Shown: positions 10,791 through 33,157 of the stretch, piece after piece
How the letters are laid out: every line of letters begins with the position of its first letter
Numbering within the stretch: position 1 is the stretch's first letter
Source: Lactiplantibacillus daoliensis
Lineage (GTDB): Bacteria > Bacillota > Bacilli > Lactobacillales > Lactobacillaceae
Length of the DNA stretch: 64,000 nucleotides
Direction: 5' to 3'
Assembly (NCBI RefSeq): GCF_005405005.1
Contig: NZ_BJDH01000003.1
Coordinates: 1 to 64,000, forward strand
The notes under the pieces: model-generated
Told to the model about the DNA's origin: nothing
Seen by the model: the letters and a program-made list of their open reading frames with translations, nothing else
Database searches by the model: none
Made by a program: the position numbers and the translations under genes

Positions 10791-10814
10791 GGTCGCCAAT
10801 TTGACTCAGCTTCG

Positions 10815-10903
10815 ACACTTTCCCTACGCGAGTCTGAACTCACAGGTTCAAAGGGATTAGTAAGTACATTACCATCTCAGCCCATCTATGGACACCCCTA
10901 GTG
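10815..10903 (-). promoter_or_regulatory. TPP riboswitch (THI element)
   Basis: Read on the minus strand, the conserved TPP aptamer blocks appear in order: CTAGGGGTG, GGGCTGAGA, ATCCCTTTGAACCTG and CGTAGGGAA. It sits in the leader of thiM-thiD-thiE ahead of an intrinsic terminator, so control is probably by transcription termination upon binding thiamine pyrophosphate. Confidence 0.95.
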
Positions 10904-10921
10904 TTTATTTTAATTACTCTA

Positions 10922-22129: not shown

Positions 22130-22167
22130 AAAATCAGGCCAACTTTTAAAAGCTGACCTGATTTTTT
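22128..22167. terminator. Bidirectional terminator between convergent genes
   Basis: AAAAAATCAGG and CCTGATTTTTT flank an additional CTTTTAAAAG core. T runs occur on both strands, fitting use by the ASCH gene and the Tet(M)-like gene. Confidence 0.85.
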
Positions 22168-24127
22168 AGGTTGTTAAATTTTTTAGCTGCGTCCCATTAT
22201 AAACATACGGAAAGTGGGCCATCGCTGGAACCTGATCCCACGGCACTGGATAGCCCGCGCCGTGCGCACAAAATACCGAATCCGGCGTATTTTCCAGATC
22301 ACCAACTGGATCATAAGACTGGTTGGCTAAAACAGCATCCTGATTGTGGCACGGCCGATACCCATCAATCAAACAATCCAATTGACCTTGCCCATGGGTA
22401 TAGGCCCGCACTTCCTGCGCGTAAGCCTGCATTTCCGAAACTGGTGCAGTCCCCATCAACGTTGTGACTCCCGCGGCATCTGTCACTGGTGGTTCAAATT
22501 GACCATGCATCCGCTGAATATCCGTCATTGCACGACCAATCTGTTCCTGACCCACCGTCAAACGGAACTGATACCAAGGTTCTAACAACTGGCAGCCATT
22601 AGTTTGCTTGAGCATCATCAGCCCTTGACGAACGGCCCGCCAAGTTGCCTCACGAAAGTCGCCACCAACCGAGTGAACGTTACTGGAACGACCACCAACT
22701 AGGGTAATTTTGACATCCGTCAATGGTGACCCGGTCAGCACCCCTAATTGTGTCTTAGCCTGCAAATTTGACAAGACTTGATGTTGCCAATTTTTGCCTA
22801 ACACCTCCAACGAACAGTCTGTTGCAAACGTTAATCCACTGCCGCGCGGTGCCGGCTGCAGCAATAAATGGACCTCAGAGTAGTGGCGTAAGGGTTCAAA
22901 ATGTCCAACGCCTTCAACATCCTGCGTAATCGTCTCCCGATACAGGATACTTCCCTCAATAAACTTGACGTCTAATTGGAAACGATCGTGTAACAGTTGT
23001 TGCAAGACCTCTAATTGAATCGTTCCCATAATCTGCACACGAAGTTCTTGTAACTGGCTAGACCAAGTCACTCGTAATTGTGGGTCTTCATCCTCTAATT
23101 GGCGCATCGCAGCTAAACAAGCATGCAGCTCTTCACCATTCGGATCTAGCCGATAAGTCAACACTGGTTGCATCACTGGCCGTTGTCCATCGGCTAAAAT
23201 TCCTAAACCTTGTCCTGGATACGTGTCGGTTAGTCCTGGAATGGCACACACCTCACCGGCTTGAATCGTCGGACGAATTTCAAATTTCTCACCATTATAA
23301 ACTCGGATTTGATTAACCTTTTGTTCACCTAAGATGACCGTTTTATTGGCCAATTGACCACCCGTCAGCCGCAACCAAGTTAAGCGTTCACCGGTCATAT
23401 CGTACGAAATTTTGAATACCCGTGCCCCAAATTCAGTGGCATAAGATGGCACGGCTGTCCAACGCTCAAGCCCAGCAATTAAGCCGTCAACGCCATTGAC
23501 TTTCAACGCTGAACCAAAATAACATGGAAAAACCTGCCGTTGTTGGATCAACTGTTGCACGGTCGAATCTGCTAACTTTCCGTTGGCTAAAAAGTCATCT
23601 AATAGCGAATCATCTTGCAAAGCCATCGCTTCGTAAGTTTCCGCGGACAGCTCACCTTCATCAAAAGCGACACACTGATCTGAAAGGCTGGTTTGTAGTT
23701 CAGATAAAACTTGTTCAGCAGCTGTTCCGGGAACATCCATTTTGTTCACAAAGATGAACACGGGTACTTGATAACGTGCTAATAATCGCCAAAGTGTCCG
23801 CGTGTAGCCCTGAATACCATCGGTCGCTGACACCACCAAAATCGCATAATCGAGCACGCTCAAGACTTGTTCCGTTTGGCTGGCAAAATCCACATGTCCT
23901 GGCGTATCTAATAGCGTCATTGTCAGTGACGGCGTTTTAAAGCTCGCCTGGTGTGAGAAAATCGTGATGCCACGTTGCTTTTCCAAATCATCTGGATCTA
24001 AGAAAGCATCACCATTATCAACTCGCCCTAGCTGACGCAAGGCACCCGTTCGGTAAAGCAACGCCTCTGAAAGCGTTGTTTTCCCAGCATCAACGTGTGC
24101 AATCACACCAGCAACTAATGATTTCAT
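22166..24127 (-). CDS. Ribosomal protection-type GTPase (Tet(M)/EF-G paralogue)
   Basis: A 653-residue translational GTPase related to Tet(M), Tet(O) and Tet(W), which bind the ribosome like EF-G and remove tetracycline. G motifs are AHVDAGKTT (G1), DTPGHVDF (G3), NKMD (G4) and GSA (G5), and the C-terminal domain ends near VFCAHGAGYPVPWDQV. Length agrees with the 639-655 residues of the family. The sequence seems divergent and chromosomal, so whether it gives resistance or has another ribosome role is open. It follows the 515-residue unknown gene by 14 bases and is the last gene of a three-gene operon. Confidence 0.85.
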   Translation of the reverse strand: MKSLVAGVIAHVDAGKTTLSEALLYRTGALRQLGRVDNGDAFLDPDDLEKQRGITIFSHQASFKTPSLTMTLLDTPGHVDFASQTEQVLSVLDYAILVVSATDGIQGYTRTLWRLLARYQVPVFIFVNKMDVPGTAAEQVLSELQTSLSDQCVAFDEGELSAETYEAMALQDDSLLDDFLANGKLADSTVQQLIQQRQVFPCYFGSALKVNGVDGLIAGLERWTAVPSYATEFGARVFKISYDMTGERLTWLRLTGGQLANKTVILGEQKVNQIRVYNGEKFEIRPTIQAGEVCAIPGLTDTYPGQGLGILADGQRPVMQPVLTYRLDPNGEELHACLAAMRQLEDEDPQLRVTWSSQLQELRVQIMGTIQLEVLQQLLHDRFQLDVKFIEGSILYRETITQDVEGVGHFEPLRHYSEVHLLLQPAPRGSGLTFATDCSLEVLGKNWQHQVLSNLQAKTQLGVLTGSPLTDVKITLVGGRSSNVHSVGGDFREATWRAVRQGLMMLKQTNGCQLLEPWYQFRLTVGQEQIGRAMTDIQRMHGQFEPPVTDAAGVTTLMGTAPVSEMQAYAQEVRAYTHGQGQLDCLIDGYRPCHNQDAVLANQSYDPVGDLENTPDSVFCAHGAGYPVPWDQVPAMAHFPYVYNGTQLKNLTT

Positions 24128-26472: not shown

Positions 26473-27888
26473 ATGCATACGATTGAAGAACTCGATGACG
26501 GTCGCACCGTCTTTTTGAATGGTCAACAGATTAAGGTTTCAGATATTCCAATTTTCCGCAAGACACTGGCATTGAATAATCAGTACTACAACTTACAAAA
26601 GGAACATCCTGATGTGCACACCTATGTCGAAAACGGTCATCGCTACGACATCGCCTATAAAGTCCCACGTAATGTCGACGATTTACGTCAAAAACACCAA
26701 GCCTATCAAGAAATTGCCCAAACGAACAATGGGATGCTTGGCCGCACACCTGACTTTTTAGCCACAGGGATGGCAGTTTTAGCAGAACGTAGTGCCTTTT
26801 TAGGTCACAATCAATATACCGACTTTGGTGAGAATGCCAAACACTACGCTGAATGGGTCAAGACAAATGATATCTTCATTAGCCACGCACTTCAAAACCC
26901 ACAACTTGACCGAAGTAAACCGATTAACGCCATTCCAAGCGGTTATGCCGGCGTCCATACGATTGAGCGCCGTTCCGATGGGATCGTTGTGTCTGGCGCC
27001 AAAATGGTGAACACGATGGCTCCCATTGCAGATGATTTATTGATCTTTAATCCACCTGAACTGTTACTTGAAAAAGGTGATACGAGTTACGGAGTAGCCT
27101 TCGCCACACCACTGAATACTCCCGGTGTGAAAATCATCTGCCGTAAATTACTCGATCATCCTGGCTATACCGAAGACGATTACCCACTCAGCAACGCACT
27201 AGACGAAATCGATGCCTATATTGTCTTCGACCACGCCTTCATTCCGTGGGAAAAGGTCTTCGTAGAAAACGACTATGAAATGAGTAATCGTTTCTTTATT
27301 GAAACTGGGATTTTCGGCCACACGTCACATCAAGATGAAGTCCGCGGCATTACTAAATTAGAGTTTGCCACTAGCTTAGCGATTCGGGTCGCACATACAC
27401 TTGGACTGGACCATTTCTTAGGTGTTCAAGAAAAATTAGGCCACTTAACCGCTAATCTAGAACTAATCAAAGGCACTATTACCCGTTCTGAAGATAATGG
27501 TAAACTGGACAAATTTGGTATTTATACGCCCAACCTACAAGCATTGCTAGCCGTTCGCGCCACCTTACCAGGATTATTCGAGGAAGCAATGCAAGTCACG
27601 CAACGTTTAGCAGCCGGTTCAATGGTAGGTGTCCCTGGATTTGCAGAATTTGACGGTGAAAACGGCAAGATTTTAAACCAAGCCTTGTCGACCTCTCTCG
27701 CAACTGCCAAAGATCGTTCAAAATTATTGAATTTAGCGTTCGACTTATCCAGTTCCGGATTTGGTCAGCGTCAGTTGATGTATGAATACTATCATGGTGG
27801 CGATCCAATGCGGATTCGGTCAAAACATTACCTAGATGAGGATTTGAGTGCTGGGAATGCAATGTTGGACAAATTACTAGGAAAATAA
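26473..27888 (+). CDS. 4-hydroxyphenylacetate 3-monooxygenase-type FADH2 enzyme (HpaB family)
   Basis: A 471-residue oxygenase of the HpaB/PheA family, which uses reduced FAD supplied by a partner reductase to hydroxylate phenolic rings. GRTPDFLATGM is the family's conserved N-terminal block and GAKMVNTMAPIADDL and the ENDYEMSNRFF region also fit. No flavin reductase (HpaC) gene is adjacent, so it must use one from elsewhere. In lactobacilli such genes are annotated broadly, and the true substrate is uncertain. GAGGGGG precedes the ATG, and a terminator follows. Confidence 0.88.
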   Translation: MHTIEELDDGRTVFLNGQQIKVSDIPIFRKTLALNNQYYNLQKEHPDVHTYVENGHRYDIAYKVPRNVDDLRQKHQAYQEIAQTNNGMLGRTPDFLATGMAVLAERSAFLGHNQYTDFGENAKHYAEWVKTNDIFISHALQNPQLDRSKPINAIPSGYAGVHTIERRSDGIVVSGAKMVNTMAPIADDLLIFNPPELLLEKGDTSYGVAFATPLNTPGVKIICRKLLDHPGYTEDDYPLSNALDEIDAYIVFDHAFIPWEKVFVENDYEMSNRFFIETGIFGHTSHQDEVRGITKLEFATSLAIRVAHTLGLDHFLGVQEKLGHLTANLELIKGTITRSEDNGKLDKFGIYTPNLQALLAVRATLPGLFEEAMQVTQRLAAGSMVGVPGFAEFDGENGKILNQALSTSLATAKDRSKLLNLAFDLSSSGFGQRQLMYEYYHGGDPMRIRSKHYLDEDLSAGNAMLDKLLGK

Positions 27889-27892
27889 TGAT

Positions 27893-27931
27893 AAAAATGA
27901 CGAAGCTGATTAACTGGCCTCGTCATTTTTT
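27893..27931 (+). terminator. Terminator after the HpaB-type gene
   Basis: AAAAATGACGA and TCGTCATTTTTT pair with a central bulge; T tract present. Confidence 0.85.
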
Positions 27932-27938
27932 AGTTGTA

Positions 27939-27954
27939 TGTTTCACGTGAAACA
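27939..27954. other. parS: parS site (chromosome partition)
   Basis: TGTTTCACGTGAAACA, an exact parS consensus, positioned between the HpaB terminator and the promoter of the FusB-type gene. Confidence 0.93.
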
Positions 27955-27979
27955 ATCTAACTTGTGATTAGCTAGGTAG

Positions 27980-28008
27980 TTGATAATCCAGTTAATCTTT
28001 TGTATACT
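27980..28008 (+). promoter_or_regulatory. Promoter of the fusB-type leader and gene
   Basis: TTGATA (27980-27985) and TATACT (28003-28008) are 17 bp apart, each one base from consensus. Start expected near 28015. Confidence 0.8.
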
Positions 28009-28053
28009 ACTATCACTTCAGTGTTTTTGGCTGAAATAAGGAGATGATTGACG

Positions 28054-28095
28054 ATGATGGCGTCATTATTAGTACGGAAAAGTGCTGCTTGTTAG
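28054..28095 (+). CDS. Leader peptide of the fusB-type attenuator
   Basis: A 13-codon open frame encodes MMASLLVRKSAAC and stops at TAG. AAGGAG (28038-28043) lies 10 bases upstream, an acceptable spacing. Its 3' half covers segment A of the attenuator described at 28076-28149, as expected for a peptide on which a stalled ribosome would remodel the RNA. The peptide has no known homologue that I can name. Confidence 0.75.
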   Translation: MMASLLVRKSAAC

Positions 28096-28149
28096 CGACA
28101 CTTTTCTGCAACACCTTTCAGAGAAGTGTCTGGTTTGAATCTGAAAGGA
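28076..28149 (+). promoter_or_regulatory. Translational attenuator ahead of the fusB-type gene
   Basis: Four segments allow two mutually exclusive folds. Fold 1: GAAAAGTG (28077-28084) pairs with CACTTTTC (28099-28106), and CCTTTCAGA (28114-28122) pairs perfectly with TCTGAAAGG (28140-28148), which hides the gene's ribosome binding site AAAGGA. Fold 2: GACACTTTTCT (28097-28107) pairs with AGAGAAGTGTC (28120-28130), freeing it. A ribosome stalled on the leader peptide covers the first segment and favours fold 2. This is the erm/cat logic, and staphylococcal fusB is reported to be regulated in the same way. Confidence 0.85.
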
Positions 28150-28158
28150 AATTTATTT

Positions 28159-28818
28159 ATGAAACAAACAATTACCACCTATCAATATAATTTTATCACC
28201 CAACAAGTTAATGATTTGACGAGTGCCTACTTGTCCGTCAATGACCTTCAAGTTCGTTTAGCCATTCGCGCTAAAGTTTTAGAGCAAGTTACACCTCTGC
28301 TACCAAGTGATGAGCCGAATACGCAACTCTTTTTAACGGGTCTTGAAACTGACCGCTTATCGCGAAAGTCTGCTGCACAGTTGCTTGAATTACTCGTCCC
28401 AATGGTCGAACCGTTCCCATTACTTTCAGCAAAACAACTATCGAAATTATTTCGGAAAGTAAAAAAGTTGAAACAACCAGAATGGTATGGCCTGAAACGG
28501 TATGAATTAACTTACTTGGGCTGGAATGATGGTGGCAATCAGAAGAAATATCTCGTGGCACCCTATGAGGACCGGTTAATCGGTATTCAAGGTGAACTCG
28601 CACCCGAAACTGTGAAAGGCGTTTGTGCAATCTGCCAAACAATTGGAAATGTTGCGCTCTTTCTATCAACAACTAAGTCATCTGGATTGGGTACCTATAC
28701 CAAGAAAGGTAATTATATTTGTCGTGATAGTAATCAGTGCAACCGACAATTGACTGATCCACAAGCCTTGGCAGACTTTTTGACTATCGTGCAGCCACAG
28801 CGTAAAAATCGAAAATAA
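28159..28818 (+). CDS. FusB/FusC-family EF-G-binding protein
   Basis: A 219-residue protein that by family should bind EF-G and release it from fusidic acid-stalled ribosomes. Blocks shared with FusC include KLFRKVKKLK, YLGWND, and GTYTKKGNYIC with a treble-clef-like zinc site: Cys156, Cys159, Cys188, Cys194. The N-terminal helical part is more variable. The ATG at 28159 lies 9 bases after AAAGGA, which the attenuator sequesters; an in-frame GTG at 28126 lies inside the attenuator stem and is not a plausible start. A strong terminator follows. Whether it gives fusidic acid tolerance is inference. Confidence 0.92.
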   Translation: MKQTITTYQYNFITQQVNDLTSAYLSVNDLQVRLAIRAKVLEQVTPLLPSDEPNTQLFLTGLETDRLSRKSAAQLLELLVPMVEPFPLLSAKQLSKLFRKVKKLKQPEWYGLKRYELTYLGWNDGGNQKKYLVAPYEDRLIGIQGELAPETVKGVCAICQTIGNVALFLSTTKSSGLGTYTKKGNYICRDSNQCNRQLTDPQALADFLTIVQPQRKNRK

Positions 28819-28829
28819 TTAAAAAATTA

Positions 28830-28879
28830 GAATAGCATACCGAATATTCTTAACAGAAAACTCAGTATGCTATTTTTTT
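28830..28879 (+). terminator. Terminator after the fusB-type gene
   Basis: AATAGCATAC and GTATGCTATT form a stem with TTTTTTT following. Confidence 0.85.
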
Positions 28880-29007
28880 ACGTTCCTAATATGTCAACAT
28901 CCCTCTCCGTTAGAACAACACACGAAAGCTGGACAGAAATTACTTCACAGAACATAACATACGTTGTAGATACTATGAATTTTTTGCAAATCTCGATTAC
29001 CTATAAA

Positions 29008-29889
29008 GGATCATCCCCATATATGTGGGGAATACATCGATTTCCATTGCCATTTGTTACGTCATACCGGATCACCCCTACATACATGGGGAATACGGTC
29101 CATTAAAGATTCAACCATATGACCAAACGGAATCATCCCTACATACGTGGGGAATACTAGAAGCTATCCGAGTGATTGGGTGGCTTCTTAGGATCATCCC
29201 TACATACGTGGGGAATACCGATACTCTCTCATGAGCTATGACCTTAGCTTGGGATCATCCCTACATACGTGGGGAATACGTATTTACGGTGTGACGCTTA
29301 AATTTTCTTCAAGGATCATCCCTACATACGTGGGGAATACGACTAGCGCGAACCCTGAAGAACAAGAAAAAGGGGATCATCCCTACATACGTGGGGAATA
29401 CACGTTTACCCAACAATATGGAACAATGGCTATAGGATCATCCCTACATACGTGGGGAATACGACTTGCCGACACCCAATGCTAGGGTGTAGTTAGGATC
29501 ATCCCTACATACGTGGGGAATACTTAAGCGTCACGCCGTAAATGCCATGCGCAATAGGATCATCCCTACATACGGGGGGAATACCTGAAAATGCGCTCGG
29601 AAGCAATTATCAGCAAGGGATCATCCCTACATACGTGGGGAATACACCAAGATTTGGCAAAGGTTGATCAAATGTCGGGGATCATCCCTACATACGTGGG
29701 GAATACCAGGGTGATCTTCGGTAGCTAAAGCGCCACCCAGGATCATCCCTACATACGTGGGGAATACGGTGAATGACCTGTAAGCATTGATAGAATGTAA
29801 GGATCATCCCTACATACGTGGGGAATACATATTTCTAGTTTTGATTCATTTACTGGTAATGGGATCATCCCTACATACGTGGGGAATAC
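29008..29889 (-). CRISPR. CRISPR array 1, type I-E, 15 repeats
   Basis: Fifteen 28-bp repeats at a constant 61-bp period give 14 spacers of 33 bp. On the coding (minus) strand the repeat starts GTATTCCCCACG and ends GGGATGATCC, the usual I-E form. The three repeats at the low-coordinate end (29008, 29069, 29130) carry substitutions and one at 29557 has a single change, whereas the repeats near 29889 are identical. Degeneracy therefore marks the trailer, and the leader lies at the high-coordinate end beside cas2. New spacers should enter at about 29890. Confidence 0.97.
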
Positions 29890-29918
29890 ACTAAAAAAGT
29901 GTTGTTATACCGCGGTTC

Positions 29919-29930
<12 letters not shown>
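29890..29930 (-). promoter_or_regulatory. Leader of CRISPR array 1, overlapping the cas2 stop
   Basis: The minus-strand sequence runs TTGAAAATTTAA, then CCGCGGTATAAC, then TTTTTTAGT directly against the first repeat. The same pattern stands before array 2. TTGAAAATTTAA also encodes the last residues and stop of Cas2 (L-K-I-stop), so leader and gene overlap by 12 bases. Confidence 0.75.
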
Positions 29931-32441
<2,511 letters not shown>

Positions 32442-32455
32442 ACACTTGTTCCTTT

Positions 32456-33157
32456 CTATAGATATTTCATCGGATCATGCTGTGTTTCAGGTTCGTTTAC
32501 CTGCATATCCAGCTTGTCGCGATCAACTCTGATCTTAGTAATAGCGCGTAAACGATGACTACGATGACGTTGGTCAAATGAACCAACCTGATCTTTCACC
32601 ATGGCACTAGCAGCCGTTGGTATTAAATTCGCATCAGCAACAATCTCAAGTGATTGACTATGACAATTTTTTTGATACCGCTTAGTCGCTTGCCAAGTTA
32701 ATTTTTGAAGAACTGTAACTGGCGTTTCATCCGAAAAATCACGAATATCTAGTACGCCAGCAGGTGCATTGGAACGCCGGCCTAAAAACAGTGGAAAATA
32801 CGGATGCTTTAGGGCAAACTTGATATCATCGATTAATTGATCATCTTGACTTCCTAGTGCCACTACAAAGACTGCATCTTGAAGATAGTCTCGATACGTT
32901 ATTTTTCGTGTATTTTTCTTCCATTCGACCGTTTGATAATCCGTCAGATTTTTCCCAACTTGATCGATTCTGACCGCAAAATCTAAGTCATTCAGGTCTA
33001 AAATTCGTTCATCAGTGCGACGATAGCCTAACGCGGCCGCGGCCATCCCAATCATGGCACTTTTGGTTGGGTAGTCATTCGTTGTCCGGCGTTCAAAAGT
33101 CGCCTCATTACCATATGACTGCAATGGCGCTGTTAATTTAATCGTTAATGTTTTCAT
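32456..33157 (-). CDS. cas5e: Cascade subunit Cas5e (CasD)
   Basis: A 233-residue Cas5 that caps the 5' handle of the crRNA in Cascade. The N-terminus MKTLTIKLTAPLQSYG and the blocks YPTKSAMIGMAAAALG and PYFPLFLGRRSNAP match the family. It overlaps the end of cas7 by 20 bases, which suggests coupled translation. Confidence 0.94.
   Translation of the reverse strand: MKTLTIKLTAPLQSYGNEATFERRTTNDYPTKSAMIGMAAAALGYRRTDERILDLNDLDFAVRIDQVGKNLTDYQTVEWKKNTRKITYRDYLQDAVFVVALGSQDDQLIDDIKFALKHPYFPLFLGRRSNAPAGVLDIRDFSDETPVTVLQKLTWQATKRYQKNCHSQSLEIVADANLIPTAASAMVKDQVGSFDQRHRSHRLRAITKIRVDRDKLDMQVNEPETQHDPMKYL

Follow-up and report, generated by a model that had tools for sequence, protein, structure and literature searches.

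How is the translation of a chromosomal FusB-type gene controlled in a food lactobacillus? The question arose from a first-pass annotation of a 64,000-nucleotide stretch of Lactiplantibacillus daoliensis DNA (contig NZ_BJDH01000003.1, positions 1 to 64,000; hereafter the window), which proposed a translational attenuator at positions 28015-28161, upstream of such a gene. Attenuation of fusB from the Staphylococcus aureus plasmid pUB101 was reportedly studied by O'Neill and Chopra in 2006, in work that later papers cite. The annotation invoked this staphylococcal precedent, and it is indeed stated in the available parts of three papers that pUB101 fusB is subject to translational attenuation, fusidic acid stalling ribosomes on the leader (PMC12008383, PMC3352095, PMC12493156). 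A staphylococcal "leader peptide-fusB" unit serves for typing (available part of PMC12561750), and the regulation of fusB homologues is stated as unknown in the accessible portion of a 2025 review. The annotation was not aware of such a system in lactobacilli; likewise, no description of a leader of this kind in lactobacilli, enterococci or Listeria was found in the accessible portions of the open-access literature.

The product of the gene was examined by domain search. It contains PF07299 (N-terminal domain, 82.9 bits for a cut-off of 27.1) and PF16571 (C-terminal zinc-finger domain, 35.8 bits for a cut-off of 27.2). Among the NCBIfam models fusF scores highest (144.6 bits for a cut-off of 435), and none of the FusB, FusC, FusD and FusF cut-offs is reached. 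As all four scores are far below their cut-offs, the protein belongs to the FusB family but is none of the named resistance proteins, so that its placement in the FusB/FusC family by the annotation was correct. The nearest relatives of solved structure are staphylococcal FusC (E 1.1e-39) and FusB (E 1.5e-37). In the phmmer alignments, the four zinc-ligand cysteines (CxxC, YIC, QC) line up with those of FusC and FusB, and the lysine-rich loop reads RKVKKLK, compared with KKVKKIK in FusB, the arginine being common to FusC. By analogy with the FusB family, the product would bind EF-G and rescue stuck EF-G complexes. The closest named protein, from L. nangangensis, is 88% identical, and an L. plantarum homologue is listed in the available part of PMC3352095 among proteins with experimental resistance evidence or from inherently resistant species. 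The genome itself contains one FusB-like match. Of 20 further genomes in the genus, 12 have such a match, and the gene occurs in 19 of the 201 Lactobacillaceae genomes sampled, so the distribution is patchy.

The surroundings of the gene include other features. About 4 kb away, a ribosomal-protection-like translation GTPase (22166-24127, minus strand; best NCBIfam model tet_protect, 398.4 against 775 bits) forms one run with a UDG-family gene and a 515-residue gene. Downstream of the FusB-like gene, after about 190 nt, comes the first visible repeat of a type I-E CRISPR array (29008-33157 and beyond); the region holds Cas1e, genes of the Cas5 and PF08798 families and, at 29919-30815, a fusion of Cas2 with a DnaQ-like exonuclease. 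A TPP riboswitch is present at 10803-10909 (minus strand, 68.8 bits).

Table 1. Elements of the FusB-type locus and of its upstream region in the window
Feature	Coordinates	Strand	Evidence or remarks
Promoter-like TTGATA-17 nt-TATACT	27980-28008	+	10/12 matches; -10 kept in relatives
5' hairpin between -10 and leader ribosome-binding site	28017-28035	+	Folding; close relatives
Leader ribosome-binding site AAGGAG	28038-28043	+	Sequence; kept in alignment of close relatives
Hairpin H0 over leader start codon	28049-28065	+	Folding; double change in relatives
Leader ORF MMASLLVRKSAAC plus stop, 13 codons, ATG 28054, TAG 28095	28054-28095	+	
Segment 1, inside leader from codon 8	28075-28084	+	10 bp with segment 2
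Segment 2	28097-28108	+	10 bp with segment 1 (from 28099) or 12 bp with segment 3
Segment 3	28114-28130	+	28114-28122 pairs with 4; 28119-28130 with 2
Segment 4, holds most of the gene's Shine-Dalgarno (28144-28150)	28140-28148	+	9-bp stem with segment 3
FusB-type EF-G-binding protein gene	28159-28818	+	219 aa; domain and phmmer evidence

The region between the promoter-like sequence and the gene was folded (Table 1). The 13-codon leader with its own ribosome-binding site and the four RNA segments with two exclusive folds are present as announced: stems 1:2 (28075-84/28099-108, 10 bp) and 3:4 (28114-22/28140-48, 9 bp) on the one hand and stem 2:3 (28097-108/28119-130) on the other are mutually exclusive. 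Two details of the annotation had to be amended. The perfect 9-bp stem is Watson-Crick throughout but does not enclose the whole start region, as it covers the Shine-Dalgarno and leaves the ATG at 28159 outside. The freeing stem exists but consists of 12 bp including one G.U, not of 11 bp. The promoter called strong is, as a pattern alone, at chance level, with 3 such sites in the region where 3.2 are expected, but 34 of 37 close relatives retain five or all six positions of its -10 element, the stretch examined cutting the element in the remaining three. Two further conserved hairpins, absent from the annotation, lie over the leader start codon (H0) and, 5' of it, where the transcript would begin. 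No Rfam family matched near the leader region at gathering score, nor within 27960-28200 at E up to 1.

The minimum free energy is -41.2 kcal/mol (z -2.5), and 3 of 200 shuffles were as low. When the energy is evaluated from these named helices only, it is -32.0 kcal/mol for the off fold (1:2 and 3:4) and -26.1 kcal/mol for the on fold (2:3). The probability of stem 3:4 is 0.89 in the free RNA. A translating ribosome was then modelled, under equilibrium folding only, as covering a stretch that begins with the P-site codon and reaches 16 nt past the first base of that codon, an assumed footprint. With the P-site at codons 1-3, the probability of 3:4 is 0.85-0.99; at codons 4-10 it falls to 0.00 while that of 2:3 rises to 0.98-1.00; at codons 11-14 the probability of 3:4 is again 0.69-0.99. 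As codons 4-10 alone have this effect, only an arrest in the middle of the leader opens the gene in the model, and a ribosome that finishes the leader closes it.

Positions 28015-28161 very probably constitute a translational attenuator for the FusB-like gene. In the uninduced state, stems 1:2 and 3:4 would pair and shut the Shine-Dalgarno of the gene, and 3:4 would stay shut behind a ribosome running to the end of the leader. A ribosome arrested with its P-site on codons 4-10 is predicted to cover segment 1, upon which 2:3 would form and the Shine-Dalgarno would open. It is presumed that elongation does arrest on the leader, and that the trigger is most likely a slow or locked EF-G, of which fusidic acid is the chemical example from S. 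aureus fusB. The strength of the switch was scored over a fixed Shine-Dalgarno region, from -17 to -8, since an earlier definition picked the wrong leader ORF at some loci. The switch of the window is 1.6 kcal/mol, a value attained 35 times in 400 when the leader-to-Shine-Dalgarno spacer is dinucleotide-shuffled, and was only 0.74 kcal/mol under the first, looser Shine-Dalgarno definition; the window alone is thus suggestive, not decisive.

The same score was calculated for 86 leader-bearing loci, drawn from 93 upstream regions; the other seven (six from Bacillaceae and the second gene copy L024) have no such leader, and L017, L019-L023 and L107, where no leader was seen or genes are partial, are outside the 93. 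Averaged over the 86 loci, one of which (L076) was kept despite a misassigned gene start, the switch is 3.22 kcal/mol, compared with 0.40 kcal/mol in shuffles that preserve the leader and randomise the spacer only. It is at least 2.0 kcal/mol in 66 loci, and in 63 it was attained by at most 1 of 19 shuffles, where 8.6 loci are expected. How well the free RNA buries the Shine-Dalgarno is less striking, exceeding the shuffles at only 30 of the 86 loci. The relatives settle the switch as more than chance, the window alone being weak in this respect. High switch values were also seen in two of 92 control genes, L083, which is a family member, and L094, a different gene of Rossellomorea.

Codon-by-codon profiles were calculated for 65 loci of our own selection; in this set as in the 86, the leader ORF of each locus was chosen by eye after the motifs had been seen. 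At 55 of the 65, occupancy of some leader codon opens the Shine-Dalgarno by at least 1.5 kcal/mol, often over a run of codons beginning at codon 4-6, and at ten no codon does so. The THVSxSK-like leaders with a Shine-Dalgarno (L138, L139, L147, L150, L153, L165) are conserved ORFs at which the model finds no switch; perhaps the gene start is misplaced or the layout is different. At L167 and L175, the leader-like ORFs MQIFALCLGRSADCI and MQIFALCLRGKVFV begin only 74 nt before the gene, which leaves little room for four segments.

Conservation was examined in an alignment of 37 upstream regions from Lactiplantibacillus, Levilactobacillus and Secundilactobacillus oryzae. Pairing and leader frame being kept in relatives was the test that the annotation had set for itself, and the outcome is favourable. 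All nine 3:4 pairs are formed in 36 or 37 of the 37 sequences; so are the 12 pairs of 2:3 except for the outer two, which are formed in 35 and 28. The start, Shine-Dalgarno, frame and stop of the leader are all conserved; the leader has 13 codons in 32 of the 37, and in the remaining five its length departs from this by whole codons, as in MPQLGSLLVRKSAVC and MAPLFAQKRVVR. The 5' hairpin folds with at least 5 pairs in 36 of the 37, in 30 distinct sequences. A hairpin over the leader start codon is found in this class and in the three other leader classes tested.

The comparison for paired changes that the annotation had also suggested gave a divided result. Over H0, 1:2 and 3:4, pairing is kept in 95.2% of the alignment cells, compared with 40-57% when the partners are slid by 1-3 columns, but only 4 of the 960 cells, each within H0, carry a double change, among relatives that vary little within the class. 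One is the change from C-G to U-A, in 3 of the 37. The observed values were matched in 11 of 500 shuffles for the covariation score, 6 of 500 for double-change cells and 84 of 500 for double-change pairs, so that only the first two are remarkable. The eight sequences of the MIRxVSS class yielded two double-change pairs (2 of 152 cells), a result matched by 7 of 500 shuffles. As variation within a class is too small for a proof by covariation, more weight is given to the layout that the classes share.

A covariance model of the leader matched 12 of the 201 Lactobacillaceae genomes, once each, and every match runs up to the start codon side of the FusB-like gene and stops there. No other gene was found under the same leader in the 201 genomes with this model, at strict filters that may lose weak matches and with 17 candidates scored per genome. 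Seven other genomes carry the gene: five have other leaders (L071, L085, L084, L092, L102) and two have none visible (G032, G377). Dissimilar leader ORFs precede the Enterococcus homologues (VSYLKE, SSCIVRSK and MIRxVSS), and MIRxVSS leaders are also found in Weissella, Ligilactobacillus, Paucilactobacillus and Tetragenococcus. Vagococcus leaders contain SSL or TSL, one Lysinibacillus leader contains SSLS, and that of a Listeria record reads MQTKLHCSRLSNNGFRIV. At one locus of 371 nt (L186), the region upstream of a FusB homologue is like that of the SSCIVRSK class, but the leader there lacks a start codon in the usual position and has an early stop; it looks like a decaying attenuator.

The frequency of leaders was counted in an order-wide sample. 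By a strict criterion, a leader ORF with a Shine-Dalgarno of 5 or more, a leader stands at 75 of 104 family places, compared with 1 of 92 control genes, among which L083 is actually a family member, and 73 of 3220 shuffles. A looser criterion gives 81 of the 104 places and 10 of the 92 controls, and leaves 23 places without a leader; one weak place (G355:C12) was left out of the count. Eight further places lie outside the 104, where a leader was seen by eye in L052, L015, L016 and L018 and none in L019, L020, L021 and L024. Two of these, L018 with a leader and L024 without, are the two FusB-like genes of a single genome (G053).

A class-wide sample extended the count. Its family f17, presumably Staphylococcaceae judging from FusD, includes one gene, on a 2.5-Mb contig (G629), that exceeds the FusD cut-off (502 compared with 450 bits). 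A leader such as MLHKNATLLIQSVRLT is present in 7 of the 12 f17 places read, with a Shine-Dalgarno of only 4 bases; these 12 are part of 15, G679, G743 and G845 being left out with the same score as the leaderless G669. Among the seven staphylococcal-type leaders, occupancy in the middle of the leader opens the Shine-Dalgarno by at least 1.5 kcal/mol in five, and in two it does not. No leader of the kind was seen by eye at the Bacillus, Cytobacillus and Rossellomorea loci (L094-L101) or at a Priestia plasmid locus (L107). None was seen by eye at eight loci of other families (L271-L278) or at the 29 best hits of the class sample, yet L275 and L249 hold an ORF that passes the strict formal test.

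In a tree of 141 proteins, 105 have a leader and 36 have none. The leader state requires 3 changes, compared with a mean of 32.3 for shuffled states, none of 500 shuffles being as low, on a quick tree that has some long branches and in which near-copies favour clustering. The labels were assigned manually: among L229-L258, the class-wide loci with a start, 29 in number, were judged leaderless by eye, although L254, L255 and L256 hold ORFs that pass the looser test, and L249 the strict one. The tree has no loci of 371 bases, which were not long enough and of which some have no leader. The novelty lies in the breadth: a single layout with many leader sequences, mainly following one part of the FusB tree and extending far beyond a resistance trait of staphylococci.

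The diversity of the leaders bears on the nature of the trigger. An attenuator of the same build could respond to another ribosome drug acting through the nascent peptide, the leader being a true stalling peptide, as for macrolides, and not a sensor of slow EF-G. In favour of such a peptide, S-x-x-V-R is common to this leader class and to that of Enterococcus avium, although the two use different synonymous codons for the Arg, and the R-S-K of the latter resembles the Arg/Lys-X-Arg/Lys macrolide-arrest motif given in the available part of PMC10314930. This trigger is nevertheless unlikely: the same layout accompanies dissimilar peptides in other classes (MIRxVSS, VSYLKE, KLHCS, NATxLIQ), codon 8 encodes Gln in 7 of the 32 relatives with 13-codon leaders, and a macrolide trigger would make little sense for a product that, by family, should bind EF-G.

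Leader-peptide genes such as msrD use transcription attenuation, according to the available part of PMC10314930, and the leader described here could likewise choose between a terminator and read-through. The sequence offers little to such a choice. No U-run follows 1:2 or 3:4, which makes control of translation more likely, and no intrinsic terminator with a U-run is visible between leader and gene. The sole terminator-like site in 27850-28900, where 0.7 are expected, lies at the leader start (28049-28065), and the Shine-Dalgarno sits within stem 3:4; transcription attenuation is thus very improbable.

That the region is a conserved 5' untranslated region that stabilises the mRNA or fixes a constant translation, its leader ORF being incidental, is hardly credible, for although the widely kept 5' hairpin is like those known to stabilise mRNAs and the switch of the window is modest, the leader is conserved in its signals, varies in length by whole codons and has its opening position in the middle across many dissimilar peptides.

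The translational attenuator favoured here resembles known systems. In those of the ermC and cat type, a leader ORF is followed by pairing segments, four in all, and a stalled ribosome frees the Shine-Dalgarno. The locus in the window shares with them the leader ORF and the alternation of 1:2 and 3:4 with 2:3, and differs from them in its product and presumed trigger (EF-G rescue) and in the additional hairpin over its leader start codon. Among these systems ermC is named in the available part of PMC10314930, where the msrD/mefA leaders are alike in placing an antibiotic-responsive leader peptide before a gene of the ribosome-protection type; these act on transcription, whereas the locus described here shows no terminator with a U-run between leader and gene.

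The closest likeness is to pUB101 fusB, which has a leader ORF, a fold sequestering the Shine-Dalgarno and a FusB-type product. The same calculation applied to its leader, MLKDITYLKLLDLEYKMLCS, gave an opening of 1.5-2.5 kcal/mol at codons 7-10, and inspection of its sequence by eye suggested a hairpin at the start codon of the leader. It differs in leader peptide and RNA sequence, and the proteins are 35% identical. It is a plasmid gene in a pathogen, whereas the gene of the window is chromosomal in a food lactobacillus. Induction by fusidic acid is reported for pUB101 fusB and is a prediction for the locus in the window.

A wider reading of these likenesses is put forward tentatively, as a possibility that is rather doubtful at present. 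The attenuator may be ancestral to a large FusB clade (Lactobacillales, Listeria, Staphylococcus), in which it would control a housekeeping gene for EF-G rescue. The leader would then be a generic elongation clock, sensing with any peptide the ribosomes that are held at the EF-G step in mid-leader; the hairpin over the start codon would limit the loading of the sensor, and the clinical fusB would be a captured copy. If this is true, clinical fusB is a captured stress circuit and not a resistance gene that evolved a switch of its own.

The predicted control of translation by a leader provides a testable answer to the question of regulation for a large part of the FusB family. The prediction spans food lactobacilli, enterococci, Listeria and chromosomal fusD, and does not extend to most of the Bacillus-type homologues examined. 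At least six different leader sequences are available for asking whether arrest depends on the peptide, and the native role of chromosomal fusB-like genes becomes directly testable in lactobacilli, which are harmless.
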